Below, piece after piece: positions 679-60,707 of a DNA stretch of 64,000 nt. The notes under the pieces are model-generated. The model ran no database searches. It was given only the letters and a program-made list of their open reading frames with translations, and was not told the DNA's origin. This DNA comes from Actinomycetospora chiangmaiensis DSM 45062. Lineage in GTDB: Bacteria; Actinomycetota; Actinomycetes; Mycobacteriales; Pseudonocardiaceae. The stretch is from NCBI RefSeq assembly GCF_000379625.1, contig NZ_KB903221.1, positions 62,292 to 126,291 on the forward strand, given 5' to 3'. The stretch's first letter is position 1. Each line of letters begins with the position of its first letter. Made by a program: the position numbers and the translations under genes.

Positions 679-2217
679 TCACGCTCCCGCGACGCGACGC
701 TCCTGGTGCGCCCAGTACGGCTCGCGCAGGGTCTTGCGCAGGAGCTTCCCGACGACGTTCTTCGGCAGCGGCTCGTGCGTGAACTCGACGCCGCCGGGCT
801 TCTTGTACGAGCCGAGCCGCCGGCTGACCAGGTCGATGATCTCCTCGGCCGTCACCTCGGCACCGGGGGCGACGTGGCAGACCGCCATCGGGGTCTCGCC
901 CCACCGGTCGTCGGGGATGGCGAAGACCGCGACCTCGATGACGGCGGGGTGGTCGGCGATGGCCGACTCGAGCTCGGCGGGCCAGATGTTGAAGCCGCCC
1001 GAGACGATCATGTCGTCGGCCCGGTCGAGGATGTAGACGTAGCCGTTCGCGTCGATCCGGCCGATGTCCCGGGTGCGGACCCAGCCGTCGACCAGCCGCG
1101 TGGCCGTGAGCTCGTCGTCGTTCCAGAAGCCCGACATCTGCGACTCGACGCGCGCGTACAGCTCCCCCTCGGCGCCCAGCGGGAGGACGGTGCCCTCCTC
1201 GTCGCGCACCTCGAGCCGCGCGAACGGCAGCACCTTCCCGGCCGCCCGCAGGGGCTGCGACCCCGGGACCTCGGAGAACCACTCCTGCGGCGTCATCACC
1301 GTGAGCGGCACGGCCTCCGTCTGTCCGAAGACCTGGTGGAGCACGTCCCCGAACGCCGCCCGGCCGGCCAGCGCGGTCGCGTCGGTGATCGGGGCGCCCC
1401 CGACGAGGAGGCACTCCAGCGCCGAGAGGTCGCAGCCGGCGCGCGACGGCTCCGCGGTGAGCATCTGGACCATCGAGGGCGGGGCGAACATGTGCGTCAC
1501 GCGGTGGCGCTCCATCATCGCGAGCACCTTCGCCGCGTCGAACGCCCCGAAGAGCAGGTTGCCGCTGCCGTGCAGCCAGGCCGGGAGGAACAGGTAGCCC
1601 GAGGCGTGCGAGATGGGCCCGGCGTGCCCGACGACGCTGTGGGTCTGCAGGTTCGGGAGCCGGTAGTACCAGTTCCGGCAGTTCACGAGCCAGTCGTGCT
1701 GCGTGTAGCCGATGCCCTTCGGGCGTCCCGTGGTCCCGGCCGAGTGGCGGATGATGTACCAGTCGTCGCCCGCGACCTCGAGCTCCGGATCGACGTCGGA
1801 CTGCCCGGCGAGCCACGCCTCGTAGCCGTCGTCGCGCACGACGATGCGCGACAGTCCGTCGATCTCCGTGTCGAGGCCGTCGACCTCGGCGGCGTGCGCG
1901 GCGTCCGTGAGCACGACCCGCGTCTGGGTCTGCTCGATCATGTGGCGGTGGGACCGGCGTGCGTTGCGCGCGTAGAGCGGGACCCGGACGGCGCCCGCGA
2001 TGGCGCAGCCCAGGAACAGGTCCGCGGCGCCCAGGTTGTTGTCCTCGAGGCCGGCGACCCGGTCGCCGGGCCGCACCCCGAGGGCCGCGAGCCCGTTCGC
2101 CAGCCGGACCCCCCGCTCCCACGCCTCGGCGAACGTGAAGGTCGCGGTCTCGGTCACCAGCGCCGTGCGGTCGCGGTAGAGGGTCATGGCCTGACGCATG
2201 AGGCTGGGGACGTCCAC
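679..2217 (-). CDS. AMP-forming acyl-CoA synthetase (class I adenylate-forming enzyme)
   Basis: The 512-residue protein has the adenylate-forming layout: AMP-binding motif SAGTTGRPKG at 159-168, a FGQTEAVPL motif in the middle, the hinge region DMIVSGGFNIWPAE near residue 400, and the C-terminal GKLLRK with the catalytic lysine near residue 491. It should activate a carboxylic acid with ATP and transfer it to CoA. The motif has serine-alanine where most ligases have threonine-serine, a mild variation. It lies 100 bases downstream of the TetR gene in the same direction and upstream of an acyl-CoA dehydrogenase, so fatty-acid or aromatic-acid activation is likely; the substrate is unknown. A copy of the 12-base core TTCCCGACGACG lies at 746-757 in its 3' part. 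Confidence 0.9.
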   Translation of the reverse strand: MDVPSLMRQAMTLYRDRTALVTETATFTFAEAWERGVRLANGLAALGVRPGDRVAGLEDNNLGAADLFLGCAIAGAVRVPLYARNARRSHRHMIEQTQTRVVLTDAAHAAEVDGLDTEIDGLSRIVVRDDGYEAWLAGQSDVDPELEVAGDDWYIIRHSAGTTGRPKGIGYTQHDWLVNCRNWYYRLPNLQTHSVVGHAGPISHASGYLFLPAWLHGSGNLLFGAFDAAKVLAMMERHRVTHMFAPPSMVQMLTAEPSRAGCDLSALECLLVGGAPITDATALAGRAAFGDVLHQVFGQTEAVPLTVMTPQEWFSEVPGSQPLRAAGKVLPFARLEVRDEEGTVLPLGAEGELYARVESQMSGFWNDDELTATRLVDGWVRTRDIGRIDANGYVYILDRADDMIVSGGFNIWPAELESAIADHPAVIEVAVFAIPDDRWGETPMAVCHVAPGAEVTAEEIIDLVSRRLGSYKKPGGVEFTHEPLPKNVVGKLLRKTLREPYWAHQERRVAGA

Positions 2218-2266
2218 GGCGGTGCTCCTCGTCGTCGAGCGCGGCCTGCGGGCCGTCGGACGCCCG

Positions 2267-2309: not shown

Positions 2310-2317
2310 GGACGGGG

Positions 2318-3762: not shown

Positions 3763-3795
3763 GGTCCGAGCACCCGCGGGCGGAACTCGGGAGCG

Positions 3796-4639: not shown

Positions 4640-4646
4640 CAACACT

Positions 4647-7957: not shown

Positions 7958-7959
7958 CC

Positions 7960-9345
7960 GTGCCCACCGACCGCGAAGGACGACCCGTGCGCCCACTCCA
8001 GTACCTGACGGTGCTCCGCCACCGGTGGCCCGTCGTCGTGACCGGCCTGCTCGTCGGCCTGCTCGCCGGCGGTCTGTTGGCCGCCCTGCTGCCCCGGCAG
8101 TACTCCTCGGACACCACGCTGTTCGTGGCGCCCGGACCGCCCGACGAACGGACCTCCGCCTACGAGCGCACCCAGATCGCCGCCCAACGGGTGCCCTCCT
8201 ACCGGGAGCTCGCCACCGACGGCCGTGTGACCGCCGCGGTCGTCCGCGACCTCGGGCTCCCCGAGACCCCGGAGTCGCTGGCCACCCGCCTGCAGGTCAG
8301 CAGCGTCGCCGACGCCCTGCTCATCGACGTGTCGGTGACCGACCCGGACCCGGCCCGCGCCGCGGCCGTCGTCGACGACGACGCCCGACGCCTGAGCGGA
8401 CTGGTCCGTGACCTCGAGCAGCCGCCGAACCCCCTCGACCCACCCGCGGTCTCCCTCGTCGTGCTGCGTCCGGCGTCCGTCCCGACCGCGCCCTCCGGAC
8501 CGTCCCCGTCGTCGTACCTGCTCCTCGGCGCCCTCGGCGGTCTCGTCCTCGGCGCCCTGGCCGCCGTCGCCCGCGAGCGCACCGACCGACGCGTGCGCTC
8601 GACGGCGGTCCTCGAGCGGACGGTCGGCGCCCCGACCCTCGGGCGGCTGCCCGCCCTCGAGGCCGGCCCGGCCCGGCGGGAGGCACTGCGTGCGCTGCGC
8701 ACCACGCTGCGGCACCTCCCGGGTCTGTCGGTCCCGTCGTGCCTGCTGGTCACGGCGGCCCTTCCCGACGACGGGGCACCCCCGACCGTCCTCGAACTCG
8801 CCGGGGGCCTCGCGGCCGCCGGGGAGTCGGTCCTGGTCGTCGACGCCGACCTCCGCCACCCCCGGCTCGCCGACCTGCTGGACCTGACCCCTGGTGCGGG
8901 GCTCACCGAGGTGCTGCGGGGCCGGGCCGACCTGGACGCGGCCGTCGTGCACCACGGGCCCTACGACGTGCTCGTGTCCGGCGCGCCCGACGACGGGCCG
9001 GACGAGCTCCTCGCCTCGTCGGCGACGCCGTCCCTGCTCGCCCGGCTGCCCCACCGCTGGGACCGCGTCCTGGTCCTCGGGCCGCCCCTGCTCGCCGACG
9101 CCGACGCCGCGGACCTGGCCGCCTGCACCGACGGGGTCCTGCTCGTGGTCCGGTGGAAGCACACGAGGATCGAGCAGGTCGCCGGCGCGGTCGACCGCGT
9201 GGCGTCGGTGTCGGCACCGATCCGGGGCACCGTCCTGGTCGACGTCCCCGGGTCCCCGCGGCCGGCGCCGCCCGCGGGCCGGGACCGGGCGGAGCGCGCC
9301 CCGGCGGCCCGGACGCCCCTCGTCGACCTGACCGCGCGGCGGTGA
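7960..9345 (+). CDS. Wzz/CapA-like chain-length protein with kinase-like domain lacking a P-loop
   Basis: A 461-residue membrane protein with the Wzz layout: transmembrane helix at about 27-47, a periplasmic-type segment, and a second helix near 185-205. The cytoplasmic C-terminal part resembles the BY-kinase/ParA-like ATPase domain, with the Walker B-like VLVVDADLRHPRL at about 288-300. However the position of the Walker A loop reads LLVTAALPDDGAPPT, with no GK[ST], and no C-terminal tyrosine cluster is present. It should therefore set polymer length without autokinase activity. It begins with GTG two bases after the hydrolase stop codon. One copy of the TTCCCGACGACGG motif falls in the degenerate loop (8762). 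Confidence 0.82.
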   Translation: MPTDREGRPVRPLQYLTVLRHRWPVVVTGLLVGLLAGGLLAALLPRQYSSDTTLFVAPGPPDERTSAYERTQIAAQRVPSYRELATDGRVTAAVVRDLGLPETPESLATRLQVSSVADALLIDVSVTDPDPARAAAVVDDDARRLSGLVRDLEQPPNPLDPPAVSLVVLRPASVPTAPSGPSPSSYLLLGALGGLVLGALAAVARERTDRRVRSTAVLERTVGAPTLGRLPALEAGPARREALRALRTTLRHLPGLSVPSCLLVTAALPDDGAPPTVLELAGGLAAAGESVLVVDADLRHPRLADLLDLTPGAGLTEVLRGRADLDAAVVHHGPYDVLVSGAPDDGPDELLASSATPSLLARLPHRWDRVLVLGPPLLADADAADLAACTDGVLLVVRWKHTRIEQVAGAVDRVASVSAPIRGTVLVDVPGSPRPAPPAGRDRAERAPAARTPLVDLTARR

Positions 9346-9349
9346 GGAC

Positions 9350-12995: not shown

Positions 12996-13671
12996 CTGGG
13001 TGCTGATGTACCACGCCGTCGCCGACGGACCCGCCGACCCGCACCGCGTCCAGGTGACCCCCGAGCGCTTCCGCCGGCAGATGCGGTGGCTGCACCAGCG
13101 GGGCCGTCGCGGGGTGAGCCTCCGGACGCTCCCCGCCCACCCCGGGGCGGTGGGCCTCACCTTCGACGACGGCTACGCCGACTTCGCCGAGACGGTCGTC
13201 CCGATCCTCGCGGAGCACGGCTTCACCGCCACCGTCTACGTCGTCGCGGGGCGGCTCGGCGGGACGAACGACTGGGACGACGGGCCGACCCGACGCCTCA
13301 TGACCGCCGACCAGGTCCGCGAGGTCGCCGCCGCCGGGATGGAGGTCGCCTCGCACACGCTGACCCACGCCCGGTTGCCGGACCTTCCCGACGACGGGCT
13401 CTCCCGCGAGCTGCGCAGGTCGAGAGCGCACCTGGAGGAGGTCCTCGACGCCCCGGTGACCGGCTTCGCGTACCCGTACGGCGCGTTCGGCGCGCGCGAG
13501 GCCCGCGCGGTCGCCGACTCCGGCTACGCCCACGCCGCCGCCATCGACCCGCGGCCGCTGGACGGGCCGTGGGCCGTGCCACGCACGTACGTCGGGCAGG
13601 CCGACACCCCCTGGCGGCTGCACGCGAAGCGGCTGCGCCACCACCACCGGACGCGAGGAGCGCGGACATGA
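12988..13671 (+). CDS. Polysaccharide deacetylase (NodB homology, CE4)
   Basis: A 227-residue single-domain protein with the CE4 motifs: TFDDGY at 58-63 (catalytic and metal Asp60/Asp61), SHTLTH at 122-127 (zinc histidines) and FAYPYGAFG near 158. It would remove N- or O-acetyl groups from a glycan. No signal peptide is visible, so it may act on lipid-linked intermediates inside the cell or be exported another way. GTG start inside the end of the flippase gene; stop overlaps the next ATG. The placement supports an amino-sugar containing exopolysaccharide, which is inference. One TTCCCGACGACGGG motif lies at 13385-13398. Confidence 0.9.
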   Translation: MPDWVLMYHAVADGPADPHRVQVTPERFRRQMRWLHQRGRRGVSLRTLPAHPGAVGLTFDDGYADFAETVVPILAEHGFTATVYVVAGRLGGTNDWDDGPTRRLMTADQVREVAAAGMEVASHTLTHARLPDLPDDGLSRELRRSRAHLEEVLDAPVTGFAYPYGAFGAREARAVADSGYAHAAAIDPRPLDGPWAVPRTYVGQADTPWRLHAKRLRHHHRTRGART

Positions 13672-14846: not shown

Positions 14847-15384
14847 ACCACGACCGCGCCGACGCCGCGGTGATCGCCCACATGCTGTCGAGCACGACGG
14901 CGATGCCCGCGAAGATCGCCCCGAGCACGAGCAGCTGACCCGGGACGCTGCGGCCCGGGTCGACGAACAGAGGGAGGAAGGCCGCGAAGAACACGACCGT
15001 CTTCGGGTTGAACAGCCCGACCGGGACACCGCGCAGGACACTGCGCACGAGGCCCGTGTCGCCCTCCGGCGTGGCCGCGGCCAGCCGCCCGTAGGCCTCG
15101 TCGCGGTGGCGGATCGCCTGCACCCCGAGGTACACGAGGTACACCGCGCCGACGAGCTTGATGACGGTGAACGCCACCACCGACCGCTCGATGAGCTCCC
15201 CCAGCCCGACCGCCAGCCCCGCGACCTGCAGCAGCACCCCCACCGCGTTCCCGACGACGGAGGCCAGCGCGTTCCGCCGCCCCACCACCAGCGCCCGGCT
15301 GATCGCGAAGACGACGCTCGGGCCGGGGATCACGATGATCAGCGCGGCGGCACCGGCGAAGGCGATGAGACGGGTGGTGTCCAC
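14746..15384 (-). CDS. LysE/RhtB-family amino-acid or metabolite exporter
   Basis: A 212-residue membrane protein with the LysE layout: N-terminal IIVIPGPSVVFAISRALVVG (the conserved PGP motif of the first helix), KLVGAVYLVYLGVQAIR, and GLFNPKTVVFFAAFLPLFV, followed by two C-terminal helices. Members export amino acids such as lysine, homoserine or threonine from the cytoplasm; the substrate here is unknown. It is a single gene, convergent with and overlapping the last exopolysaccharide gene, and divergent from an SDR gene with a palindrome in between. Confidence 0.88.
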   Translation of the reverse strand: MDTTRLIAFAGAAALIIVIPGPSVVFAISRALVVGRRNALASVVGNAVGVLLQVAGLAVGLGELIERSVVAFTVIKLVGAVYLVYLGVQAIRHRDEAYGRLAAATPEGDTGLVRSVLRGVPVGLFNPKTVVFFAAFLPLFVDPGRSVPGQLLVLGAIFAGIAVVLDSMWAITAASARSWFSRSPRRLAGFGTIGGVAMIGLGAGAATAQRAT

Positions 15385-17578: not shown

Positions 17579-18730
17579 ATGCTCGGATATCGCGTCCCCG
17601 CGCCGGACCAGGCGATGCTGGTCAGCGGCGGGAAGGCCCGTCGTCGGGACACCCCGTTCCGGGTGGTGACGGGACACGGCGCCTTCGTCCTGCCGTTCTT
17701 CCGCAAGACACGCTTCCTCTCGCTCGCCCTCGACGAGGCCGAGGTGACCGAGGTGTGCGTGACCCAGCAGGGCATCTCGCTCACGGCCCGCGCGGTGATC
17801 GCCTTCAAGGTCCGCAACGACGAGGAGGGCATCGTCGCCGCGGCCCAGCGGTTCCTGTCCGACCAGAGCCAGATGTCGGTGCTGACGGGCCGCATCTTCG
17901 CCGGCCACCTGCGCTCGATCATCGGCTCGATGACCGTCGAGCAGATCGTCCGCGAACGCCAGATCCTCGCCGACCAGGTCCTCGACGCGTCGAAGACGGA
18001 GATGGCCAAGATCGGGCTCGCGGTCGACTCGGTCCAGATCCAGTCGATCGACGACATGCAGTCCGGCTACATCGAGGCGATGGCCGCGCCCCACCGCGCC
18101 GCCGTCGTCCGGGAGGCCAAGATCGCCCAGGCGCGGGCCGACCAGGCCGCGGCCGAGGCGACCCAGGAGTCGGCCCGGCGCCAGGCCGAGTACGCCCGCC
18201 AGACCTCGATCGTGCAGGCCGAGTACGACGCGGAGATCGAACGCGCCCGCGCGCAGTCCGCCCAGGCCGGCCCGCTCTCGGCGGCCACCGCGCAGCGGGA
18301 GGTCGTCGACGCCCAGGCCGAGCTGGCCGAGCGGACGGCCGCGCTGCGCGAGCAGCAGCTGGTCGCGGAGGTCGTGCGCCCCGCCGAGGCGGAGGCCGAG
18401 CGCGTCCGCATCCTCGCCCGCGCCGAGGCCGAGCGGATGCGCATCCAGGCCGAGGTCGCGGCCGCCCACGACCGTGTGGCCCTCGACCGCATGCTCATCG
18501 ACCAGCTGCCCATGATCGTCGCCGAGGCGGCCCGCAGCCTCTCCGGCGCCAACGTCACCGTCCTCAACGGCGCCGAAGGCCTCTCCGAGGTCACCGCCGG
18601 CCTCGTCGGGCAGGGCCTCACGGTCTACGAGACCGTGCGCCGGTCCCTCGCGGGAGGCCGTCCCGACGACGGGACGCGGCCCTCGCCGCACCCGCGCGCG
18701 CACGCCGTCAACGGCTCGACCGGAAGCTAG
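17579..18730 (+). CDS. SPFH/Band 7 (flotillin-like) membrane-associated protein
   Basis: A 383-residue protein with an N-terminal SPFH domain (about 1-190; LPFFRKTRFLSLALDEAEV, LTGRIFAGHLRSIIGSMTVEQIV, LAVDSVQIQSI) and a long alanine/glutamate-rich coiled coil at about 190-310 with repeated AEAEAERVRILARAEAERMRI-type segments, as in flotillins. No clear N-terminal membrane helix; association would be peripheral and by oligomerisation. Flotillins organise membrane microdomains and influence protease and transporter activity. It pairs with the upstream NfeD-like gene. A near copy (CCCGTCGTCGGGA) of the dispersed motif lies at about 17638 and another at 18660. Confidence 0.88.
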   Translation: MLGYRVPAPDQAMLVSGGKARRRDTPFRVVTGHGAFVLPFFRKTRFLSLALDEAEVTEVCVTQQGISLTARAVIAFKVRNDEEGIVAAAQRFLSDQSQMSVLTGRIFAGHLRSIIGSMTVEQIVRERQILADQVLDASKTEMAKIGLAVDSVQIQSIDDMQSGYIEAMAAPHRAAVVREAKIAQARADQAAAEATQESARRQAEYARQTSIVQAEYDAEIERARAQSAQAGPLSAATAQREVVDAQAELAERTAALREQQLVAEVVRPAEAEAERVRILARAEAERMRIQAEVAAAHDRVALDRMLIDQLPMIVAEAARSLSGANVTVLNGAEGLSEVTAGLVGQGLTVYETVRRSLAGGRPDDGTRPSPHPRAHAVNGSTGS

Positions 18731-18812: not shown

Positions 18813-20693
18813 GTGAGCACGCACAACGGCCTGACCCTGTCGGCTCTCGCGGGCAGTGCGGTCGCCGGCTCCGCACCCGCGGCCACGGCCGCCCTCGCGC
18901 CCGACACCCGCATCGAGGCGACGCTCGTCCTCCGGCGTCCGGGCGCCGCACCCGACCCGACCACCGTCCTGCCCGCCGCCGAGTTCGCGGCCGCACACGG
19001 TGCGGCGGCCGACGACATCGCCCTCGTGACCTCCACCCTGGTCGGGCTCGGCGTGCAGGTGCTCTGGGTGCAGCCGGCCGCCCGGCTGGTGCGCGTGGCC
19101 GCGCGGGCGGACGTCCTGTCCCCCGTCTTCGGCGCCGACCTCGCGGTCGACCCGGCGACGGGGTACCGGGTGCGCACCGGCGAGCTCTCCGTGCCCGCGG
19201 CCCTGGCCGGCGTGGTGACGGCGGTGCTCGGCCTCGACGACCGGCCCCAGGCGCGCACCCGCACCAGCACCGCCGACCCGAGGGCGGTGTCGACCAGCTA
19301 CTCGCCGCTCGACCTGGCGAAGGTCTACGACTTCCCGGCGGGCACCGACGGCGCCGGTCGGACGATCGCCATCGTCGAGCTCGGGGGCGGCTTCGGCCAG
19401 GCCGACCTCGACGCCTACTTCTCCGGGCTCGGCATCACCGGGCCCACCGTCACCGCGGTCGGCGTCGACGGCGCGGCCAACGTTCCGGGCAAGGACCCGA
19501 GCGGCGCCGACGGCGAGGTGCTGCTCGACATCGAGGTCGCCGGTGCGCTCGCGCCGAAAGCGGCCGTCGTCGTCTACTTCGCGCCGAACACCGACGCGGG
19601 CTTCCTCGACGCCGTCTCCCAGGCCGCGCACGCCTCCCCCACCCCCGCCGCGATCAGCATCAGCTGGGGGCAGAGCGAGGACGAGTGGAGCGCCCAGGCG
19701 CGGACCGCGCTCGACCAGGCGATGGCGGACGCCGCGACCCTCGGCGTCGTGGTCACCGCCGCGGCCGGCGACGACGGCAGCACCGACCGCGCCGCCGACA
19801 ACGCCGTCCACGCCGACTTCCCGGCCTCCAGCCCGCACGCCCTGGCCTGTGGCGGGACCAACCTGGCGGCGGACCCGTCGTCGGGAACGGTCAGCAGCGA
19901 GACGGTGTGGAACAACGGCGTCGGCAAGGGCGCCACGGGCGGCGGCGTCTCCGACGCGTTCCCCGTGCCGTCGTGGCAGGCGGGCGTCGGGGTCCCGACG
20001 GCGAGCGGGAGCGGGAAGGCCGGCCGCGGCGTGCCCGACGTCGCGGCGGTCGCCGACCCGACGACGGGCTACAAGGTCCGCGTCGACGGCCAGGACCTGG
20101 TCATCGGCGGCACCAGCGCGGTCGCCCCGCTCTGGGCGGCGCTCGCGACCCGCCTCACCCAGGCGCTCGGCACACCGCTCGGCCTGCTCCAGCCGCGGCT
20201 CTACGGGGCCACGACGGCGGGTGCGGTCGCCCCGGGCTTCCGCGACATCACCAGCGGGACCAACGGCGCCTACTCCGCCGGGCCGGGTTGGGACGCGTGC
20301 ACGGGCCTGGGCGTCCCGGTCGGCTCGGCGCTGCTCGCCGCGCTGCGCGGTTCGGCCGCCGCGGGCTCGTCGGTGCTGGCCGTGCCGCGGTCGGGGCCGG
20401 TCCTCACCGGGTCGCGGGTACGGGTCGCGGTGGACGACGTCGCGGCCGCCCTCCCGCTCTACCGCGCCCTCACCGGCGCCGACCCGGTGCGCCGCGACGA
20501 CGGGACGGTCGACATCGGGCACTTCCAGCTCGTGCCCCGCGGCGCGCGCGAGGGGATCACGCTCGTCGTCGACGACCTGCGGGTGGCCGCGACGGCGGTC
20601 GTCGCGGCGGGCGGTTCCGTGGTGGAGGAGACGAACGCCGGCCTCGTCGCCCGCCACCCCGACGGCGCGGTGTTCACCTACGTGACGGGCTGA
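18813..20693 (+). CDS. S53 family (sedolisin/kumamolisin) serine-carboxyl peptidase with C-terminal VOC-like domain
   Basis: With GTG 18813 the protein has 626 residues. The first 180 form a pro-kumamolisin activation domain. The peptidase domain has the catalytic Glu235 and Asp239 in DGEVLLDIEVAGAL, the oxyanion-hole Asp in AAGDDGSTD (about 320), and nucleophile Ser435 in GGTSAVAPLWAAL. The calcium site RDITSGTNGAYSAGPGWDACTGLG follows. Family members cleave proteins at acidic pH. No convincing signal peptide is visible, as in some kumamolisins. Residues from about 528 to the end (VRVAVDDVAAALPLYRALTG to FTYVTG) resemble a glyoxalase/VOC half-barrel, an unusual addition. An upstream ATG at 18762 would add a basic 17-residue stretch. 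Confidence 0.9.
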   Translation: MSTHNGLTLSALAGSAVAGSAPAATAALAPDTRIEATLVLRRPGAAPDPTTVLPAAEFAAAHGAAADDIALVTSTLVGLGVQVLWVQPAARLVRVAARADVLSPVFGADLAVDPATGYRVRTGELSVPAALAGVVTAVLGLDDRPQARTRTSTADPRAVSTSYSPLDLAKVYDFPAGTDGAGRTIAIVELGGGFGQADLDAYFSGLGITGPTVTAVGVDGAANVPGKDPSGADGEVLLDIEVAGALAPKAAVVVYFAPNTDAGFLDAVSQAAHASPTPAAISISWGQSEDEWSAQARTALDQAMADAATLGVVVTAAAGDDGSTDRAADNAVHADFPASSPHALACGGTNLAADPSSGTVSSETVWNNGVGKGATGGGVSDAFPVPSWQAGVGVPTASGSGKAGRGVPDVAAVADPTTGYKVRVDGQDLVIGGTSAVAPLWAALATRLTQALGTPLGLLQPRLYGATTAGAVAPGFRDITSGTNGAYSAGPGWDACTGLGVPVGSALLAALRGSAAAGSSVLAVPRSGPVLTGSRVRVAVDDVAAALPLYRALTGADPVRRDDGTVDIGHFQLVPRGAREGITLVVDDLRVAATAVVAAGGSVVEETNAGLVARHPDGAVFTYVTG

Positions 20694-20735
20694 GCGGGAC
20701 CCGTCGTCCGGAAAGGGCGTCCTCCGATCCGGGCA

Positions 20736-42440: not shown

Positions 42441-43769
42441 TCAGGAACGGAGCGGACGCCCGGCCGTCTCGCGCAGCGCGAGCACGGCCGGCAGCGAGAC
42501 CAGGGCGAGCACGATCACGTAGAAGGCGCCGACCATCGTGCTGCCGGTGACGCCGCCGAGCCAGGTCAGCAGGTAGGGCGCGGAGCCGCCGAAGAGGGCG
42601 ACCGACAGGTTGTAGGTGATGCCGTGGCCGCTGACGCGGACCTTCGTCGGGAACTGCTCGGTGAGCGCCGCGTTGATCACCGCCGCGTAGGCGCCGGCGA
42701 GCAGCCCGAACAGCACGAGACCGCAGGCGATGAGGCCGAAGGTGCCCGACGTGATGAGCAGGAAGCTCGGGTAGGCCAGCAGGAGCAGCCCGAGCCCGCT
42801 GGTCAGCAGCACGGGCTTCCGGCCGACCCGATCGGAGAGCCACGCGCCGACGACCTCGGCGACGAGGCACGCGGCGAGGGCGATCAGGGACGGCGCGAAG
42901 GCCTCCAGCCCGGACAGCTTCAGGGCTTTCGTCGCGAAGCTCGGGAGATAGCCGACGATCATGTAGAACGACGAGGCGTTGACCGCGACCAGGCAGAACG
43001 CAACGACCAGCAGGCGCCGGGCCGAGCGGCCGGTCACCGCGGCGCGGACCGGGTTGGCGGCCTGGGCGGACTCCTCGCGCAGGGCGAGGAAGAACGGCGT
43101 CTCGTCGAGGCGACGGCGGATGAACAGCCCGATGAGCCCGAGCGGGAGCGCGACCAGGAGCGGGATGCGCCAGCCCCACGACAGCATGGCCTCGGTGGAG
43201 AGCGTCAGCAGCAGGATCCCGGGCAGCAGGCTGCCGAGCAGCGTCCCCACCACCGAGCCGACCGAGATCATCCCGACGAAGAGGCCCCGCCGGTGGGTCG
43301 GCGCGTGCTCCGCGACGAAGGAGACGGCCCCCGAGATCTCCCCGCCCGCCGAGACGCCCTGCACGAAGCGGAGCAGGACGAGCAGGACCGGCGCGGCGAC
43401 CCCGATCGCGGCGTAGCCCGGCAGGAGACCCATCAGCGTCGTCGCCACCGACATGAGCAGCACGGTGAGGGCGAGCGTGCCGCGACGGCCGATGCGGTCG
43501 CCGACCGCGCCCCACACGAAGCCGCCGAGGGGCCGGGCGAAGAAGGCCACCGCGAACACGGCGAGGGCCGAGAGCAGGCCCGTCGTGGGGTCGACCGCGG
43601 GGAAGAACACCGCCGCGAGCGTGGTCGCGAGTACCGCGTAGACGGAGAACTCGTAGAACTCGACGAGCGAGCCGATGACCCCGCCGAGCAGCAGGCGCCG
43701 CACGGCCCGACGGGTCTCCGGGTTCTCGGCCGCCACGTCCGGTGAGGGGGTGGGGTGGAGCGCGGACAT
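42441..43769 (-). CDS. MHS-type major facilitator transporter
   Basis: A 442-residue, twelve-helix transporter starting at ATG 43769. FYEFSVYAVLATTLAAVFFP, DRIGRRGTLALTVLLMSVATTLMGLLPGYA and RFVQGVSAGGEISGAVSFVAEHAP match the metabolite:H+ symporter (MHS) subgroup, with the D-x-x-GRR loop motif. Substrates in this subgroup are organic acids, betaine-like compounds or aromatic acids. It is convergent with the amidohydrolase operon and follows the SDR-ferredoxin-P450 genes in direction. The 105 bases between it and the amidohydrolase stop hold no recognisable gene. Confidence 0.9.
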   Translation of the reverse strand: MSALHPTPSPDVAAENPETRRAVRRLLLGGVIGSLVEFYEFSVYAVLATTLAAVFFPAVDPTTGLLSALAVFAVAFFARPLGGFVWGAVGDRIGRRGTLALTVLLMSVATTLMGLLPGYAAIGVAAPVLLVLLRFVQGVSAGGEISGAVSFVAEHAPTHRRGLFVGMISVGSVVGTLLGSLLPGILLLTLSTEAMLSWGWRIPLLVALPLGLIGLFIRRRLDETPFFLALREESAQAANPVRAAVTGRSARRLLVVAFCLVAVNASSFYMIVGYLPSFATKALKLSGLEAFAPSLIALAACLVAEVVGAWLSDRVGRKPVLLTSGLGLLLLAYPSFLLITSGTFGLIACGLVLFGLLAGAYAAVINAALTEQFPTKVRVSGHGITYNLSVALFGGSAPYLLTWLGGVTGSTMVGAFYVIVLALVSLPAVLALRETAGRPLRS

Positions 43770-46192: not shown

Positions 46193-47389
46193 ATGTCGAC
46201 GATCACCCTCGACCGCTACGCCGACGTCCGCGACGCGTTCCGCCGCCACGAGCTCGCGCAGGCCCTCTACGACGCGGGCGGCGTGGTGATGGCTGACTGC
46301 CTGCTCGTCCTGCACGGCGCGGAGCACCGGGTGCGCCGGCGGGTGGAGAACCGGCTGTTCCGACGAGGCACCTTCCGACACTGGGAACGGGAGTTCCTGC
46401 GCGACGTCGTCGTCGACACCCTGCGCCCCTTCACGACGACGGGTCGCGCCGACCTCATCGAGCTCGGCTACCGAACGATCATGACCCTGACGGCGATGGT
46501 CGCCGGCGTCGACCGGCCCACCGGCTCCGACGCCGAGACCGACGCGCTGTACCGGCTGGCGAAGAAGTTCTCCGAGGGCGCCACGCTCGTCCACACCACG
46601 CGCGACCCGGGCGAGGTGCGGGCCGAGGTGGCGGCCGCCCTCGACGAGTTCGACCGGGTCTTCCTGCAGCCCTCGATCGCCCGCCGCACCGACCTGCTCA
46701 CGCGGCTCGCGGCCGGAGAGATCGAGGAGTCGGCCCTCCCCCGCGACGTCCTCACCGCCCTGCTGCGCCACCGCGACGAGCTCGGTATCTCCGACGACGC
46801 GATCCGTCGCGAGTGCGCCTTCTACCTGCAGGCCGGCTCGCACAGCACCGCCGACGCCTTCAGCCACGCGGCCGACGACTGGTTCGCCTGGTCGGCGCGG
46901 GAGCCCGACGCCGCCACGCGGTCCACGCGGGATCCCGCCCTGCTGCAGGCCTGCGTGTACGAGACGTTGCGCCTGCACCCCGCGAGCCCCGTCGCCCAGC
47001 GCCGGGCCGAGGCGCCGATCGCCCTGCGCAACGGCACCGAGGTCCCCGAGGGCGCCGTGGTCGTCCTCGACATCGCCGCCGCGAACCGGGACGCGACCGT
47101 GTTCGACCGCCCCGAGGAGTACGACCCGACCCGGGTCGTCCCCGCCGAGGTCCCGCGGTGGGGTCACGCCTTCGGCGGCGGCATGCACGCGTGCATCGGC
47201 ACGGAGCTGGCCGGCGGGGTGCCCGTGAGCGCCGCGGAGAACGGCTCCCAGGTCCTGGGCACCGTCACGCTGATGCTCGAGGCCCTGCTCGCCGCCGGGG
47301 CGCGGCCTGACCCGGAGCACCCGGCGCGACGGGACCCGCACTCCGCGCGGGACCACTTCGCGTCCTACCCCGTGCTCCTCGGCCCGTGA
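46193..47389 (+). CDS. Cytochrome P450 (paralogue of the divergent P450)
   Basis: A 398-residue P450 from ATG 46193 (GTG 46187 is possible). I-helix AGSHST at 214-219, Glu257/Arg260 of E-x-x-R, and haem loop FGGGMHACIG at 327-336 with Cys334. Compared with its neighbour, the I-helix acid/alcohol pair is Ser-His-Ser-Thr. No ferredoxin follows on this strand, so it probably shares the ferredoxin at 44635. It overlaps an NTF2-like gene by four bases and is followed by an SDR, giving a likely oxidation-hydrolysis-dehydrogenation sequence. Substrate unknown. Confidence 0.92.
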   Translation: MSTITLDRYADVRDAFRRHELAQALYDAGGVVMADCLLVLHGAEHRVRRRVENRLFRRGTFRHWEREFLRDVVVDTLRPFTTTGRADLIELGYRTIMTLTAMVAGVDRPTGSDAETDALYRLAKKFSEGATLVHTTRDPGEVRAEVAAALDEFDRVFLQPSIARRTDLLTRLAAGEIEESALPRDVLTALLRHRDELGISDDAIRRECAFYLQAGSHSTADAFSHAADDWFAWSAREPDAATRSTRDPALLQACVYETLRLHPASPVAQRRAEAPIALRNGTEVPEGAVVVLDIAAANRDATVFDRPEEYDPTRVVPAEVPRWGHAFGGGMHACIGTELAGGVPVSAAENGSQVLGTVTLMLEALLAAGARPDPEHPARRDPHSARDHFASYPVLLGP

Positions 47390-49195: not shown

Positions 49196-50602
49196 TCAGG
49201 AGATGTCCGGCTCGGCCTCACCGGCGAGCGCCTCCGCGATCGCGCGCGGCTCGAGCCCCTCCGGGCCCACCACGACGACCGACCCCGGCTCGGCGGGCTC
49301 CACCCGCGGCGGCTCCTCGCCGCAGATCGCGTGCACGAGCGCCCGTTCCAGCGCCGGGCGCACCAGGTCGGCGAGCTCCTCGCCGCGCGGCTTCGCGAGG
49401 CCGTCGACCAGGGCCGGCACGTCCACGAGCGCCGCGGCCGCGCTCGGCCGGGCGAGCGTGCACACGTCGCGTTCCCGACGACGGGTCGCGGTGCTCCGCG
49501 ACCACGTCAGGACCACCGTGCCGTGCAGGTCGGTCCAGAACTGCCGCTCGGCGACCGGCGCCGGCAGTGGACCGGCCGCCGTCGCCTCGACGGTCCGCGA
49601 CCGCCGGACGTCCTCGGCGGTCGCCTCGAGGCCGGCGAGCCGGTCCGTGTCGTCGGGGTCGTCGGCGAGGTCGGTGATCGCCCGGAACGCGCCGTCGGTC
49701 GTCAGGACGGCCGCGAGGTCGAGCCGCTCGGCCTCCACCCGGTACTGGTGCACCACCAGCCGCGGCCCGTCCGCCGTCGCGCCCGCCCGGGTACTGACGA
49801 CGGCCAGGTCGAGCCGGTCGGGGGGTGGGTCCTCCCCGTCGGGCACGTCGTAGGCCCGGGCGCAGGCGGGCCAGTGCAGCAGCGTGGACCCGTCGTCGGG
49901 AACCACGTCCCTCTCGCGCGTCCGGTCGAGGACGAGGCCGAGCAGGCGGAGCTGGTCGGTCTCCCGGTCGTCGACGTAGCCGCGGACCTCGGCCAGCGCC
50001 CCGTCGTGATCGGCCGCGAGCGCGTCGAGTCGCGCTCCCGTCCCGTCGTCCGCGTCGACCCGGCGGCCCAGCTCCTCGAGCTGCGAGGTCAGCCGACGAC
50101 GCGTCCGCCACCCCTCGTAGGCGAGGCCGCCGAGGAGCAGCAGGACGACCAGGGCGCCCCCGACGAGCCACGGCCAGCCGAGGCCGCGTTGCTCGACCAC
50201 CGGCGCGGGCGTGACCGTCACCGGCGTGTCCACGGTCGTCGACTGCACGCCCAGCCGCGTCAGCCCCTCGATCGCCACCGGGTTCCCGACGTCGAGCTGC
50301 TGCGCCGCCCGGTAGTGCCCGGTCGCGCCGGTCGGGTCGCCCGCGGTCTCCGCCTCGGCGCCGGCCGCGACCTCGCGGTACGCGGCCGCGTAGCGCTCGC
50401 TCGCGGCGTTCAGTCCCGAGGTCGCGCAGTCGCCCTCCTGCGCCTGGAGCGCCCGCGCCGACAGCTCGGTCGCGGCCCCGACCCGGCCGGCCTGCAGCTG
50501 CGTCGCCGCGGCGTCGCACAAGGGCGTGGGCGCGGCGGAGCACCCGGCGGTCGTCGTCACGACCGCGAGCAGGACCGCGGACGCGGCGAGGAGGGATCGC
50601 AC
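49196..50602 (-). CDS. Lipoprotein with central membrane helix, unknown function
   Basis: A 468-residue protein from GTG 50602 with a lipoprotein signal (LLAASAVLLAVVTTTAGCSA). Residues 25-130 are alanine-rich and helical with TPR-like spacing (AAYREVAAGAEAETAGDPTGATGHYRAAQQLDV). A membrane helix at about 145-168 (WPWLVGGALVVLLLLGGLAYEGW) is followed by a charged segment and a C-terminal domain of about 250 residues with no recognised motif. It starts 11 bases after the HxlR gene on the same strand. Two copies of the TTCCCGACGACGG motif (49472 and 49889) lie in it. Confidence 0.7.
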   Translation of the reverse strand: MRSLLAASAVLLAVVTTTAGCSAAPTPLCDAAATQLQAGRVGAATELSARALQAQEGDCATSGLNAASERYAAAYREVAAGAEAETAGDPTGATGHYRAAQQLDVGNPVAIEGLTRLGVQSTTVDTPVTVTPAPVVEQRGLGWPWLVGGALVVLLLLGGLAYEGWRTRRRLTSQLEELGRRVDADDGTGARLDALAADHDGALAEVRGYVDDRETDQLRLLGLVLDRTRERDVVPDDGSTLLHWPACARAYDVPDGEDPPPDRLDLAVVSTRAGATADGPRLVVHQYRVEAERLDLAAVLTTDGAFRAITDLADDPDDTDRLAGLEATAEDVRRSRTVEATAAGPLPAPVAERQFWTDLHGTVVLTWSRSTATRRRERDVCTLARPSAAAALVDVPALVDGLAKPRGEELADLVRPALERALVHAICGEEPPRVEPAEPGSVVVVGPEGLEPRAIAEALAGEAEPDIS

Positions 50603-52952: not shown

Positions 52953-54278
52953 CTACCTCCGGGGTCGGGGTTGGGGATACCGCGGGTTCGCGACGGCGAG
53001 GCGGGTCAACGTCGAGCTGCGGACGGCGGCGGACACGGCCTCGTCGTCGGGATCGAGCGAGCCGTCGCGGAGACCCGCCACCAGAGCGACGTCGTCGGGA
53101 CAGCCGGCGTCGGCGAGGCGGTCGAGGTGCTGTCGGCGCAGCTCCGGGCCGAGGGACACCTCGCGCGCCACGACGCCCAGCCCGGTCCGGGCGACGCGCG
53201 CCAGGTAGCGGGACCGGTCGTCGGCGAACGTCAGTTCCCCGACGAGTGCGCCGGAGACCGCGTCGAGCAGTTCGTCCACCGTCGGACGGTCGGAGCCGGT
53301 CGTCGTGGCCGCGACCTCGGGCAGCGGGTCCTCCGGGGCGACCAGGCCGAGGACGAGGAGCGCGTCGTACTCGGCCTCCACCGCGCGGCGCCCGAGGACG
53401 GCCATCTCCATCGACCGCTCCGACCCGCCCAGGTGCCGCTCCGCCTGCATCCGGCAGATCACCGCCCAGTGCACGCACGCGTAGAGCTCCCACCAGCGCA
53501 CGGCCGCGGGGTCGGGACGCTCCGCCAGCTCGGCGTAGCCGTCGAGGAGCTCGTCGAGCGAGCCGAACCCGCCGACCTCCGCCTCGGCGCCGAACCGCCA
53601 CGCCCGCAGGCACAGCCACCCGAGGTCCTCGCGCGGGTCGCCGACGTGGGCGAGCTCCCAGTCGAGCACGGCCCGGAGCCCGTCCTCTCCGACGAGGAGG
53701 TTGCCGTGGCGGAAGTCGCCGTGCACCACGGCGGGCGCCGTTCCCGACGGCGGGTGCGCGGACAACGCCCGGAACGCCACCTCGAGCGCGGGGCGGGGTT
53801 CGCCGTACGCGTCGTGCTCGGCACGGAGCCGCCCCAGCGGGTCGTCGACGTGCTCCAGGGACGGCACCTCGTCCGGCGGGATGGTGTGGAGGCGCGCGAG
53901 GGTGCGGCCGAGTTCGCGGGCCAGTCCGGCGCGGGCGGCGGCGAAGCGCTCCTCGCGCAGCAGGCGGGGCGGCAGCGTCTCGCCGTCGAGCCGCTCCATG
54001 ATCAGGTACGGGCTGCCGACGGCGTCGGAGCCGTCGCCGGTCGCCACGAGCCGCGGGATCGGGACGCCCGCCCGGGCCGCGGCGCGGAAGCACTCGGCCT
54101 CGCGGCGCACCTCGACGGGGCGCGGCACCTCGGGCGGGTCGCGACGCAGCACCAGTTCCCGCCCGTCGGCGTCGAACGACCACGTCTCGCGGCTCGCGCC
54201 CGCGGTCAGCCGCCGGAGCCCGGTGATCGCCGCGCCGCCCAGCACCTCGGCGAGGGCCTCGCGGAGCGCGTCGGTCAC
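52953..54278 (-). CDS. Phosphotransferase (APH-like) fused to an acyl-CoA dehydrogenase-associated C-terminal domain
   Basis: A 441-residue protein starting at GTG 54278, which overlaps the TetR stop codon (GTGA). The first 300 residues are an APH/choline-kinase-type domain: LTAGASRETWSFDADGRELVLRRD, VVHGDFRHGNLLVGEDG with the catalytic Asp, and LDWELAHVGDPREDLGWL with the metal Asp. The last 110 residues (TVDELLDAVSGALVGELTFADDRSRYLARVARTGLGVVAREV) match the DUF6285-type domain often found with such kinases. APH-like proteins of this kind are associated with acyl-CoA dehydrogenases and phosphorylate 4-hydroxyacyl substrates in some bacteria; here inferred from context. Confidence 0.86.
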   Translation of the reverse strand: MTDALREALAEVLGGAAITGLRRLTAGASRETWSFDADGRELVLRRDPPEVPRPVEVRREAECFRAAARAGVPIPRLVATGDGSDAVGSPYLIMERLDGETLPPRLLREERFAAARAGLARELGRTLARLHTIPPDEVPSLEHVDDPLGRLRAEHDAYGEPRPALEVAFRALSAHPPSGTAPAVVHGDFRHGNLLVGEDGLRAVLDWELAHVGDPREDLGWLCLRAWRFGAEAEVGGFGSLDELLDGYAELAERPDPAAVRWWELYACVHWAVICRMQAERHLGGSERSMEMAVLGRRAVEAEYDALLVLGLVAPEDPLPEVAATTTGSDRPTVDELLDAVSGALVGELTFADDRSRYLARVARTGLGVVAREVSLGPELRRQHLDRLADAGCPDDVALVAGLRDGSLDPDDEAVSAAVRSSTLTRLAVANPRYPQPRPRR

Positions 54279-57949: not shown

Positions 57950-59463
57950 TGCTGGTCCACGACATCGTCCGCCACCACGCCCGGGCCCGCGGCGGCGCCG
58001 TCGCCCTCGTGGTCGACGACCGGGAGATCACCTACCGGGCACTGCAGGACCTCGTCGACCGCACGGCCGGCGCGCTCGCCGCCCGCGGCGTCGGGCACGG
58101 CGACCGCGTCGCGGTGCTCGCGAAGAACAGCCTGGAGTACGTCCAGCTCTACTTCGCGACGGCGGGTCTGGGCGCGATCCTCGTCCCGCTGAACTTCTGG
58201 CACCGCGCGGGCGAGCACGCCTACACGATCGACGACGCCGATCCCGCGCTGTGGTTCGTCGAGGCCGGCTACGACGACGTCGTGGGCGAGGCCCGGGCCG
58301 CGCACCCGGATCTGCCGGTGCTCCGGATCCCCGGCCCGGAGGGCGACCGTGCCGACTGGGACGCCTTCCTCGCGGCCGCCGTCGCGGTGCCCCCGTCGGT
58401 GGTCGCCGACGAGGACGCCCACATGATCCTCTACACGTCCGGGACGACGGGACGCCCGAAGGGCGCGGTCCTGTCGCACCGGCGCACCGTGGACGACGCC
58501 CTCGCGATGGCCGCCGTGCTGCGCGCGCACGACCGCGACGTGTTCATGAACTACTTCCCGCCGTTCCACGTCGGGAACTGGGACCACATGAAGCCGTTCC
58601 TGCTCATGGGCGGCACGGTGATCCTGCTCCGCGAGTTCGACCCCGACGTCGTGCTGACCCTGCTCCCCCGCCACCGGGTGTCGGTCGTCCTGGGCGTCCC
58701 GACGATGCTCCACGCCCTGATCACCCACGAGCGCTTCCCGACGACGGACACGTCGTCGATCCGGCTGCTGTACTACGGCGCCTACGACCCGAGCGGCATC
58801 ATGGACCGCACCGCCGCGGCCCTCGGTGCCCGCGAGGGCCGCGTCGCGTTCGCGCACACCTACGGGCTCACCGAGGCGGGCCCGTTCGTCACCTGGTGCC
58901 CGCCCGAGGACGTCTTCGCGCGGTGGGGGTCGGTCGGCCGCCCGATGCCCGGCGTCGACGTCGCCCTGCTCGCGCCCGACGGCGGGGAGGTGCCGGCGGG
59001 CGAGCCCGGCGAGATCTGCGTCCGCGGCCCGCGGATGTCGGGCTACTGGCGCAACCCCGAGGCGAGCGCGGTGGCCCTCGCCGACGGCTGGCTGCACACC
59101 GGCGACGTCGCCGTCGCCGACCCCGACGGCTTCCTGACGATCGTCGACCGCACCAAGGACATGATCCGCTCCGGCGGGCAGAACGTGTGGTCCAAGGAGG
59201 TCGAGGACTGCCTGGCCCACCACCCCGCCGTCGTCGACGTGGCCGTGATCGGCGCGCCGGACCCGGTCTACGAGGAGCAGGTCGTGGCCGTCGTGGTCCC
59301 GCACGACGGCGGGTCGGACGCGCTCGCCGACGAGCTCGCGGCCTTCGTGCGGGCCCGTCTCGCGGGCTACAACACCCCACGCCGGGTGCACTTCGTCGAC
59401 GCGTTCCCGCGGACCGCCGTCGGGAAGATCCAGAAGCACGTCCTGCGGGAGATGTTCCGGTGA
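57949..59463 (+). CDS. AMP-forming acyl-CoA synthetase
   Basis: A 504-residue ligase from ATG 57949. Motifs: MILYTSGTTGRPKGAVLSH (about 158-176), YGLTEAGPFVTW, GWLHTGDVAVADPDGFLTIVDRTKDMIRSGGQNVWSKEVE, and the catalytic lysine in RTAVGKIQKHVLRE at the C-terminus. Unlike the ligase at 679 it has the canonical YTSGTTG. It activates a carboxylic acid to its CoA ester for the operon's dehydrogenase and hydratases. A TTCCCGACGACGG motif lies at 58735, read as FPTTD. Confidence 0.9.
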   Translation: MLVHDIVRHHARARGGAVALVVDDREITYRALQDLVDRTAGALAARGVGHGDRVAVLAKNSLEYVQLYFATAGLGAILVPLNFWHRAGEHAYTIDDADPALWFVEAGYDDVVGEARAAHPDLPVLRIPGPEGDRADWDAFLAAAVAVPPSVVADEDAHMILYTSGTTGRPKGAVLSHRRTVDDALAMAAVLRAHDRDVFMNYFPPFHVGNWDHMKPFLLMGGTVILLREFDPDVVLTLLPRHRVSVVLGVPTMLHALITHERFPTTDTSSIRLLYYGAYDPSGIMDRTAAALGAREGRVAFAHTYGLTEAGPFVTWCPPEDVFARWGSVGRPMPGVDVALLAPDGGEVPAGEPGEICVRGPRMSGYWRNPEASAVALADGWLHTGDVAVADPDGFLTIVDRTKDMIRSGGQNVWSKEVEDCLAHHPAVVDVAVIGAPDPVYEEQVVAVVVPHDGGSDALADELAAFVRARLAGYNTPRRVHFVDAFPRTAVGKIQKHVLREMFR

Positions 59464-60707
59464 GCCCCGACCCCGACGTCGCCCTCCTGCTGCAGGAGCT
59501 GGACGCCTTCGTCGACGCCGAGATCGTCCCGCTGCAGGCGCAGGACGACAACGAGCGGTTCTTCGACCACCGCCGCGAGTTCGCCCGCACCGACGTCGAG
59601 GCGGGCGGGCTCCCGCGACGGGAGTGGGAGGAGCTGCTCGCCGAGGCCTGCCGTCGGGCGGACGCGGCCGGGTTCTACCGCTACTCGCTGCCCACCGAAC
59701 TCGGCGGCCGCGCCGGCACGGAGTCGGCGATGGCCGCGATCCGGGAGCACCTCGCCCACCGCGGGCTGGGGCTGCACAACGACCTCCAGAACGAGCACTC
59801 CGTCGTCGGGAACCTCGTCTTCGCGCACCTGCTGTATCTCTACGGGACGCCGGAGCAGCGTGAGGAGCTGGTCGAGGACGTCATCACCGGGCGGCGGGGC
59901 CTGGCCTTCGGGCTGACCGAGCCCGGGCACGGCAGCGACGCGACATGGATGGAGACGACGGCGCGCCGCGAGGGCGACGCCTGGGTGATCGACGGGGCGA
60001 AGCGGTGGAGCACGGGCGTGCACCGCGCGAGCCACGAGATGGTCTTCGCGCGGACGTCGGGTGAACCCGGGAGCGCCCGCGGGTTGTCCGCGTTCCTGGT
60101 GCCCACCGACACCCCGGGGTTCGAGGTCCCCTTCTACTGGTGGACGCTCAACATGCCCACCGACCACGGGGAAGTCGTGCTGCGCGACGTGCGCGTCCCG
60201 GCGTCCGCCCTGTTCGGGGGCGAGGGCGAGGCGCTGTCGGTGGCACAGACGTTCGTGCACGCCAACCGCATCCGACAGGCAGCCTCGAGCCTCGGCGCGG
60301 CGCAGTACTGCATCGACCGTGCGGTCGCCTTCGCCCGGGAGCGGCACACGTTCGGCCGCCCCCTCGCGAGTCGGCAGGCGATCCAGTGGCCACTCGTCGA
60401 GCTGCACACCGAGGCCACCATGCTGCGCGCACTCATCCGCGACACCGCCGCCGAACTCGACGGGTGCCGGCGTGAGGGCCGCCCCGAGGTGTCGGTGGGC
60501 CACCACGTCTCGATGTGCAACTACCGCGCCAACCGGCTCGTGTGCGAGGCGGCGGACCGGACGATGCAGGTGTTCGGCGGCGTCGGCTACTCGCGCCACG
60601 AACCGTTCGAGCACATCTACCGGCATCATCGCCGGTACCGCATCACCGAGGGCGCGGAGGAGGTGCAGATCCGTCGTGTCGCCGGGCAGCTCTTCGGCTT
60701 CCTCTGA
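59460..60707 (+). CDS. Acyl-CoA dehydrogenase
   Basis: A 415-residue enzyme from GTG 59460, overlapping the ligase stop codon. FGLTEPGHGSDATWMETTARREGDAWVIDGAKRWSTG is the middle-domain signature, and QVFGGVGYSRHEPFEHIYRHHRRYRITEGAEEVQIRRVAGQLFGF is the C-terminal signature with the FAD-contacting region and the Glu that acts as catalytic base in many members. It would oxidise the acyl-CoA made by the ligase. The C-terminal 32 bases overlap the next gene. A complementary motif copy (CCGTCGTCGGGAA) lies at 59800. Confidence 0.9.
   Translation: MSPDPDVALLLQELDAFVDAEIVPLQAQDDNERFFDHRREFARTDVEAGGLPRREWEELLAEACRRADAAGFYRYSLPTELGGRAGTESAMAAIREHLAHRGLGLHNDLQNEHSVVGNLVFAHLLYLYGTPEQREELVEDVITGRRGLAFGLTEPGHGSDATWMETTARREGDAWVIDGAKRWSTGVHRASHEMVFARTSGEPGSARGLSAFLVPTDTPGFEVPFYWWTLNMPTDHGEVVLRDVRVPASALFGGEGEALSVAQTFVHANRIRQAASSLGAAQYCIDRAVAFARERHTFGRPLASRQAIQWPLVELHTEATMLRALIRDTAAELDGCRREGRPEVSVGHHVSMCNYRANRLVCEAADRTMQVFGGVGYSRHEPFEHIYRHHRRYRITEGAEEVQIRRVAGQLFGFL

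Follow-up and report, generated by a model that had tools for sequence, protein, structure and literature searches.

A short, strictly conserved DNA word recurs genome-wide in one clade of Actinomycetospora

Why does a single 13-base word recur in genes, between genes and on both strands of a short stretch of an actinobacterial chromosome? The window analysed here is a stretch of 64,000 nucleotides from Actinomycetospora chiangmaiensis DSM 45062 (NZ_KB903221.1, positions 62,292 to 126,291). A preliminary description had reported ten exact copies of the word TTCCCGACGACGG, seven in one orientation and three in the other, and had proposed that something at the DNA level keeps them. All ten copies are confirmed at the positions reported, 7 on + and 3 on -, while 100 dinucleotide shuffles of the window give a mean of 0.03 copies and at most 1. 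With up to one mismatch there are 20 copies against 0.44 in shuffles. The word, or a one-base shift or trim of it, also heads the ranking of 12-, 13- and 14-mers of the window against a Markov model. Some details of the preliminary description need correction. The one-mismatch copies placed at 53751 and 63186 are at 53741 and 63187, the GC content of the window is 74.6% and not 72%, and, by gene calls from a simple codon-usage caller written for this work, three of the ten exact copies are intergenic, not one.

In the whole genome the word occurs 398 times, 207 forward and 191 reverse, whereas the reversed control word occurs 0 + 0 times. Codon usage does not explain this excess. Synonymous-codon shuffling within genes (40 rounds) leaves a mean of 1.0 exact copies against 26 observed in 419 called genes of 464 kb of this genome, and 0.75 against 19 in 376 called genes of 400 kb of G003 (G numbers denote the 18 genomes of the genus compared here). 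Five of the 18 genomes, which form one clade, hold 305-398 exact copies (the high genomes), G010, G015 and G014 hold 30, 54 and 20, and ten hold 0-6 (the low genomes). With up to one mismatch there are 1298-1582 copies in the five against 49-112 in the ten. G010, G014 and G015 hold 452, 242 and 545 such copies; 140 kb each of G010 and G015 gave 15 and 3 of them, too few to define a dialect. A further 372 genomes of the family hold 0-8 exact copies. In low genomes, k-mer ranking in 100 kb each of G017, G009, G011 and G005 gave no 13-mer with more than 7 copies among the eight listed for each. Chance, codon usage or protein sequence are therefore rejected as the cause; nothing beyond the GC-rich composition speaks for them, and the word is absent from related genomes of similar GC.

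Seven of the ten exact copies in the window lie inside called genes. The copy at 8762..8774 (+) lies in gene 7987-9345 (+), 13385..13397 (+) in gene 13000-13671 (+), which contains a polysaccharide deacetylase domain, and 19875..19887 (-) in gene 18813-20693 (+). Gene 49196-50602 (-) holds two copies, 49472..49484 (+) and 49890..49902 (-). The copy at 58735..58747 (+) lies in gene 57949-59463 (+), an AMP-binding enzyme, and 59800..59812 (-) in gene 59460-60707 (+), an acyl-CoA dehydrogenase. The copies at 15248..15260 (+), 20736..20748 (+) and 35606..35618 (+) lie between called genes. One-mismatch copies are found at 746..758 (+), where the last base is T, and at 17638..17650 (-), 18660..18672 (+) and 63187..63199 (-), where the first base is G. 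Further one-mismatch copies are at 20701..20713 (-), 35 bp from 20736 and in the opposite orientation, at 37476..37488 (-), 42641..42653 (-) and 46430..46442 (+) (TTCACGACGACGG), at 53741..53753 (+) (TTCCCGACGGCGG, changed at a tolerant position), and at 59414..59426 (-).

The fuller motif is a non-palindromic sequence of about 15 bp, CSKTCCCGACGRCGGGT, with a strict core and two tolerant positions, and it occurs at near 315 sites/Mb. The position weight matrix behind this density was trained on the same G000 and G003 stretches in which it counts sites, with its threshold set on the low genomes, and the exact-word counts and the other genomes are the independent evidence. Inside genes the sites face both ways (62/50 and 52/45) and use all three frames, with the third frame rare; between genes they are 2.0 and 1.5 times over-represented. 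As sites in genes face both ways, a function at the RNA level is judged unlikely. The preliminary description had expected skew or even spacing to support a function, but neither was found. Spacing is near-random (CV 1.02-1.11). In the single-contig chromosome G003, where origin and terminus were not located, the strands are balanced at 31/31 in 0-200 kb, including every 50-kb bin, at 18/14 in 535-615 kb and at 27/36 in 3.0-3.2 Mb. This speaks against a polar Chi site or a polar segregation site, FtsK-orienting (KOPS-like) or other. A binding site of a nucleoid or chromosome-organising protein, kept one by one by selection, would be in line with the strict core, the near-palindromic ends and the conservation described below. 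However, density is comparable in the sampled parts of G003 (62/200 kb, 32/80 kb, 63/200 kb and 24/100 kb), and the gain of several hundred to about 1850 sites within one genus seems fast for one-by-one selection. This reading remains possible, but we regard it as unlikely.

Comparison with relatives shows that sites tend to be kept while their flanks drift. The strict bases are retained in 240 of 341 aligned high-clade site pairs against 7022 of 20255 random nine-base sets, although these pairs are counted in both directions and over related genomes and are not independent. At orthologous sites it is mainly the tolerant positions that drift. In the window, 15248 is identical in G001, G003 and G016, and 19875 is identical in G001, the only relative aligned there. 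The copy at 20736 is identical in G003, with one mismatch in G016 and three in G001. The copy at 49472 is identical in G003 and G016 with one change in G001, while 49890 is identical in G003 and G016 despite strongly diverged flanks and is lost in G001. Of the one-mismatch copies, 37476 is exact in G001 and G016 and has one mismatch in G003, with five mismatches in low genome G012 and a gapped alignment in low genomes G011 and G013. The copy at 42641 has two to four mismatches in the six relatives aligned. The copy at 46430 is the same in G001 and G003, with one further change in G016 and other sequence in low genomes, and 53741 is the same in G003 with one further change in G016.

These alignments show gain by point substitution and make a short mobile element that inserts as a unit very unlikely. 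Alignment gaps in or beside sites are indeed more frequent than at random positions (5 of 15, 3 of 14 and 5 of 20 in G001, G003 and G016 against 0.05, 0.06 and 0.11; 1, 2 and 2 of 3 in three low genomes against 0.12-0.14), and one tandem array of five 16-bp units exists at G000:C1:3852-3916. Inspection nevertheless shows no clean motif-sized presence or absence. Several gapped cases are intergenic or poorly aligned stretches, sites in well aligned genes differ by substitutions, and flanks outside about 17 bp are random.

We also observe a spacing effect that depends on orientation. Same-orientation sites avoid each other at 300-1500 bp, with 39 pairs observed against 66.7 expected by strand shuffling and 0 of 500 shuffles as low, while opposite-orientation neighbours are not depleted. 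The effect, including its range, was noticed in the data and then tested. It is seen separately in G000 and G003, but is weak in 60 sites of G016 and G001 (11 against 14.2). The only fresh stretch (100 kb, 24 sites), which is included in the pooled figures, by itself gives no support, with 4 same-orientation pairs against 3.4 expected and 5 opposite pairs against 3.4. Below 300 bp same-orientation pairs are not clearly depleted (8 against 6.2, 6 against 8.5). The avoidance looks as if each site serves one side over about 1.5 kb, as would be expected for a directional, Chi-like recombination or repair signal read in one orientation by an end-processing nuclease or helicase. In contrast to this reading, there is no replication polarity, fifteen bases is long compared with Chi sites of typically some 5-8 nt, and the word is near background in the other clade of the same genus. 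Without an examination of RecBCD/AdnAB, a Chi-like signal remains possible but unlikely.

Taken together, the word is the core of a sequence-specific, oriented DNA signal retained through the chromosomes of one Actinomycetospora clade, and the natural cause would be a sequence-specific and orientation-aware reader, which is unknown. The preliminary proposal that something at the DNA level keeps the motif is well supported, and of the options it listed, an uptake-type signal fits best in our judgement. In the absence of any uptake, transformation or binding experiment, we infer with a probability of about 0.5 that the word works as a self-recognition sequence for natural transformation. A surface DNA receptor of the Flp/Tad pilus or ComEA would bind fragments that carry the word, and ComEC would pull one strand in. 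Recombination would then replace alleles that lack the word by alleles that have it, so that the word accumulates as DUS does in Neisseria and USS in Haemophilus.

The closest parallels are the DNA uptake sequence (DUS) of Neisseriaceae and the uptake signal sequence (USS) of Pasteurellaceae. DUS likewise occur as hundreds to thousands of copies of a short word in and between genes, with inverted pairs forming stem-loops and a required inner core with variable outer positions; DUS also have clade-specific forms (PMC3630211, PMC12616744). USS are similar in these respects, and their reported density of about 200-800 USS/Mb (PMC12616744) compares with about 315 sites/Mb here. The word itself is different and, compared with DUS, longer. 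Convergent inverted pairs number 12, 17, 13, 8 and 5 in the five high genomes, 2 in G015 and 0 in the other 12 (only this arrangement was searched), and one pair folds at -40.7 kcal/mol. Such pairs would have been taken up secondarily as stem-loops, probably terminators. Two observations may not match. Sites are not enriched in DNA shared with relatives, at least on the one contig tested (C5) and with alignability as a proxy (G016 20 of 46 sites in 43.7% of the length, G001 15 of 46 in 35.4%, G003 14 of 46 in 30.1%), whereas DUS have accumulated in the core genome. Also, orientation-dependent avoidance at 300-1500 bp does not appear to be a property of DUS or USS.

Genes for natural transformation are present. 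We find comEC in 16 of 18 genomes, comEA beside it where the locus was read, dprA in 16 of 18, and a Flp/Tad cluster in the 15 genomes read, with tadA split in G015. This machinery does not separate bearers from non-bearers, since comEC, dprA and the pilus ATPase are present in all nine low genomes of the comEC tree and the Tad cluster was read out in eight of them. N-methyl type IV pilins, the class of the known DUS receptor (ComP) and of the proposed USS receptor (ComN/PpdA, a minor pilin), were found in 0 of 18 genomes. This result rests on one short Pfam profile, with which controls ring in 8 of 14, and a similar genome search for TadE (0 of 18) was insensitive, as it missed the G000 protein in the cluster that resembles TadE weakly (E 0.0057, below its cut-off). 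No clade-specific receptor was seen in the pilus cluster, and within the 20-kb Tad regions no gene family of three or more members is found only in the motif clade. The helix-hairpin-helix part of ComEA differs between the clades, but these differences may simply follow the phylogeny.

Only Neisseriaceae and Pasteurellaceae are said to enrich their genomes for a word that marks DNA for uptake (PMC12616744). More tentatively, and slightly less likely than not, the present word could be the first DNA uptake sequence outside Proteobacteria, evolved within one actinobacterial genus, read by a Flp/Tad-ComEA route instead of a type IV minor pilin, and acting with a direction and a range of about 1.5 kb on one side of each site. 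As the word is abundant in five genomes, sparse in their sister lineage and near background in the other clade, its rise can be followed site by site. If the uptake reading holds, it points to isolation by DNA label in high-GC Gram-positives and gives a direct way to search for an unknown DNA receptor. If the reader is intracellular instead, the word is still a genome-wide oriented signal of which we found no description in the literature searched.

The clade-limited, dispersed and oriented distribution would also suit a self-marker for another DNA transfer or defence process, such as a conjugal translocase, a nuclease-based defence or a modification site. No search was directed at these processes, and we consider this reading improbable; recognition words of modification enzymes are probably not normally enriched to hundreds of 13-15-mers. 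HIP1 of cyanobacteria (GCGATCGC) is likewise a very abundant short word whose abundance differs between genomes, but it is a palindromic octamer linked to orphan methyltransferases (PMC4390886), whereas the word described here is not palindromic and is about 15 bp long.

The ten exact copies of TTCCCGACGACGG that the preliminary description had placed in the window are all found in those places, against a mean of 0.03 in shuffles. Allowing up to one mismatch, the number rises to 20 (shuffles 0.44), and the word or a trim of it heads the window's ranking of 12-, 13- and 14-mers. In the genome from which the window is taken (G000, 5.86 Mb, 31 contigs), the word occurs 207 + 191 times, while the reversed word occurs 0 times. 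Shuffling of synonymous codons gene by gene within called genes (40 rounds) leaves a mean of 1.0 exact copies where 26 are observed in G000 (419 genes), and 0.75 where 19 are observed in G003, a second genome of the genus (376 genes). With the full motif model, the corresponding figures are 8.3 against 112 and 5.9 against 96. Codon usage and composition therefore do not explain the abundance of the word.

Of the 18 genomes of the genus, five contain 305-398 exact copies (G000, G001, G003, G007 and G016, referred to as high genomes), three contain 20-54 (G010 with 30, G015 with 54 and G014 with 20, the latter being 59% complete), and ten contain 0-6 (low genomes). With up to one mismatch, the counts are 1298-1582, 242-545 and 49-112, respectively, with reversed controls of 2-12. 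The 372 genomes of other genera in the family search (390 with the genus) contain 0-8 exact copies, and 24 genomes of other families of the order contain 0-6. A midpoint-rooted tree of the comEC locus, based on a nucleotide alignment of this one locus in 16 of 18 genomes, places the five high genomes in one clade, G010 and G015 as its sister, and nine low genomes in the other clade. No comEC match was found in the partial assemblies G004 and G014.

Alignment of the exact copies shows information in only about 17 positions, with random flanks. One-mismatch variants are not spread evenly. In G000, 26 of 64 fall at position 9 and 16 at position 0, with one in all of the strict bases of C..GACG; in G003, the numbers are 29 and 27 of 77, with two there. 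A weight matrix trained on these two genomes reads CSKTCCCGACGRCGGGT and finds 321 and 312 sites/Mb in G000 and G003, 43 in G010, 14 in G015 and 7.5 in four low genomes pooled. By extrapolation, about 315/Mb would correspond to roughly 1850 sites per genome. We infer that strict positions together with tolerant ones are what a specific reader would leave; that this reader is a nucleoid or organising protein seems doubtful to us. A related word, CACGACGGCGGGT, occurs 7 times in the window (4557, 17129, 20210, 20962, 30459, 33472 and 59302; expected 0.07) but only 5 times in 400 kb of contig C1 of G000, and looks like a variant of the same motif. Contig C1 further contains a tandem array of five 16-bp units of the motif, head to tail and with variants, at 3852-3916 (stretch L198). 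A second dispersed repeat is found on this contig (L198-L217), for example at 308-315 kb and 364 kb, around GGAGACGCAGCGGAGCTCGAC: AGCGGAGCTCGAC occurs 20 times in 400 kb, partly in tandem with a period of 35-36 bp. In G003, a 13-base word, ACGACGCTTTCCT, occurs 7 times at 3.0-3.2 Mb of contig C1 (L188-L197), twice as inverted pairs 34 bp apart, like a REP-type hairpin element. Low genomes have their own small repeats, namely a palindrome AGGGGCGCCCCT in G011 (L228-L232), counted 6 times over both strands and thus present at three places in 100 kb, and words around CTACGGCCAGACCCAG in G009 (L223-L227), with 6 copies in 100 kb.

In G000, 112 of 149 sites lie in genes and 33 between genes (4 on edges), while in G003 these numbers are 97 of 125 and 26 (2 on edges). 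The intergenic share is 2.0 and 1.5 times the non-coding share of the sequence. Orientation relative to the gene is balanced (62/50 and 52/45), and spacing is close to random (CV 1.11 and 1.02). On the single-contig chromosome of G003, strands are balanced with 31/31 in the first 200 kb, 18/14 in 80 kb and 27/36 at 3.0-3.2 Mb, so that there is no sign of replication polarity, although origin and terminus were not located. In the first 200 kb, the lowest-GC fifth has 0.15 sites/kb against 0.25-0.45 in the other fifths. The same comparison is weaker at 3.0-3.2 Mb (0.225 against 0.30-0.375) and absent in contig C1 of G000 except for the highest fifth. Convergent pairs 2-30 bp apart that form stem-loops, the only arrangement searched, number 12, 17, 13, 8 and 5 in the five high genomes, 2 in G015 and 0 in 12 others. 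Counted from the list of pairs, the two arms carry the matching variant at the tolerant position in 12 of 12 pairs of G000 and 15 of 17 of G003, as expected if the stem itself matters. One such pair folds at -40.7 kcal/mol against -19.5 for shuffles.

Sites in the same orientation avoid each other at 300-1500 bp. We observe 39 pairs against 66.7 expected (sd 5.8, 0 of 500 strand shuffles as low; 373 sites), and the depletion is seen separately in G000 (19 against 34.0) and G003 (20 against 33.3). It is not significant beyond 1500 bp. The effect and its range were found in these same data; the one fresh 100-kb stretch is too small to confirm it and does not by itself show it, and in 60 sites of G016 and G001 it is weak (11 against 14.2). 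Opposite-orientation pairs are not depleted, and convergent pairs at 150-300 bp are in excess (14 against 4.2). We infer that each site appears to serve one direction over about 1.5 kb. A Chi-like directional recombination signal is possible, but we consider it unlikely.

In syntenic stretches, the word often stays while its neighbours change. The site at window position 49890 is identical in G000, G003 and G016 with strongly different flanks, but lost in G001, and the site at 15248 is identical in four genomes. In the Tad region, three sites are found in all five high genomes and a fourth in four of them, with an exact 13-mer in the fifth; none is a site in G010, G015 or the low genomes where these align. 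Over the high-high comparisons in three regions, nine strict bases are unchanged in 240 of 341 aligned site pairs, against 7022 of 20255 random sets. A further 225 pairs were not alignable, and pairs were counted both ways and over related genomes, so that they are not independent. From the high genomes to eight low genomes and G010 in the Tad region, the strict bases are unchanged in 2 of 158 pairs (94 not alignable) against 1466 of 8825, as expected if the sites were gained within the clade. Differences are substitutions, and no insertion of a motif-sized unit was seen, although gaps near sites are more frequent than at random positions. At window position 46430, reading the alignment by eye, the low genomes encode F-V-A-A-G where bearers encode F-T-T-T-G, so the word seems even to have changed protein sequence. 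The first 14.7 kb of the window (1-14700) shows no synteny with the stretches of the relatives that were compared, and a 4.5-kb query from it (8000-12500) finds only short weak matches in the genus, yet it carries two exact copies (8762 and 13385).

Sequence comparison reveals a clade-limited, oriented word with a strict core, gained by substitution and retained. We infer, with a probability of roughly 0.5 and in the absence of any experiment, that it is an uptake-type self-recognition sequence. The parallel with DUS/USS is close with respect to copy number, use of both strands, location in genes and gaps, inverted stem-loop pairs, a strict inner core with variable outer bases, and clade restriction (PMC3630211, PMC12616744). 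The machinery that would be needed exists: ComEC (16 of 18 genomes), ComEA with SLBB and helix-hairpin-helix domains, DprA (16 of 18) and a Flp/Tad cluster with TadZ-, TadA-, TadB-, TadC-, Flp- and TadE/F-like genes, where the assignment of the smaller genes rests partly on gene order. In the actinobacterium Micrococcus luteus, natural transformation depends on Flp pilus biogenesis (PMC4322843). However, the same genes occur in genomes without the word, and sites do not appear to be enriched in DNA shared with relatives on the one contig tested, with alignability as a proxy. In addition, no N-methyl type IV pilin, the class of the known and proposed receptors, was found with one short profile. 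The word works like an uptake sequence in its genomic pattern, but because the minor-pilin receptor class, a defining feature, was looked for and not found, we do not assign it to DUS or USS. We found no paper on the word itself, on natural competence or on motifs and repeats in Actinomycetospora, or on overrepresented uptake sequences and natural transformation in Actinobacteria, in a literature search, judged partly by title, that did not cover most subscription papers.

In G015, a sister genome with few motif copies, the pilus ATPase gene tadA is split by a prophage of about 57 kb with a large serine integrase, HNH endonuclease and endolysin (stretches L306, about 10240 to end, and L307, start to about 9583). 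A gene of about 217 aa beside the Tad cluster, between clusters 17 and 6 (stretches L308-L315), is present in the eight low genomes examined and not called in the motif clade or its sister; it looks like a GPR1/FUN34/YaaH-type membrane protein, although this assignment is tentative.
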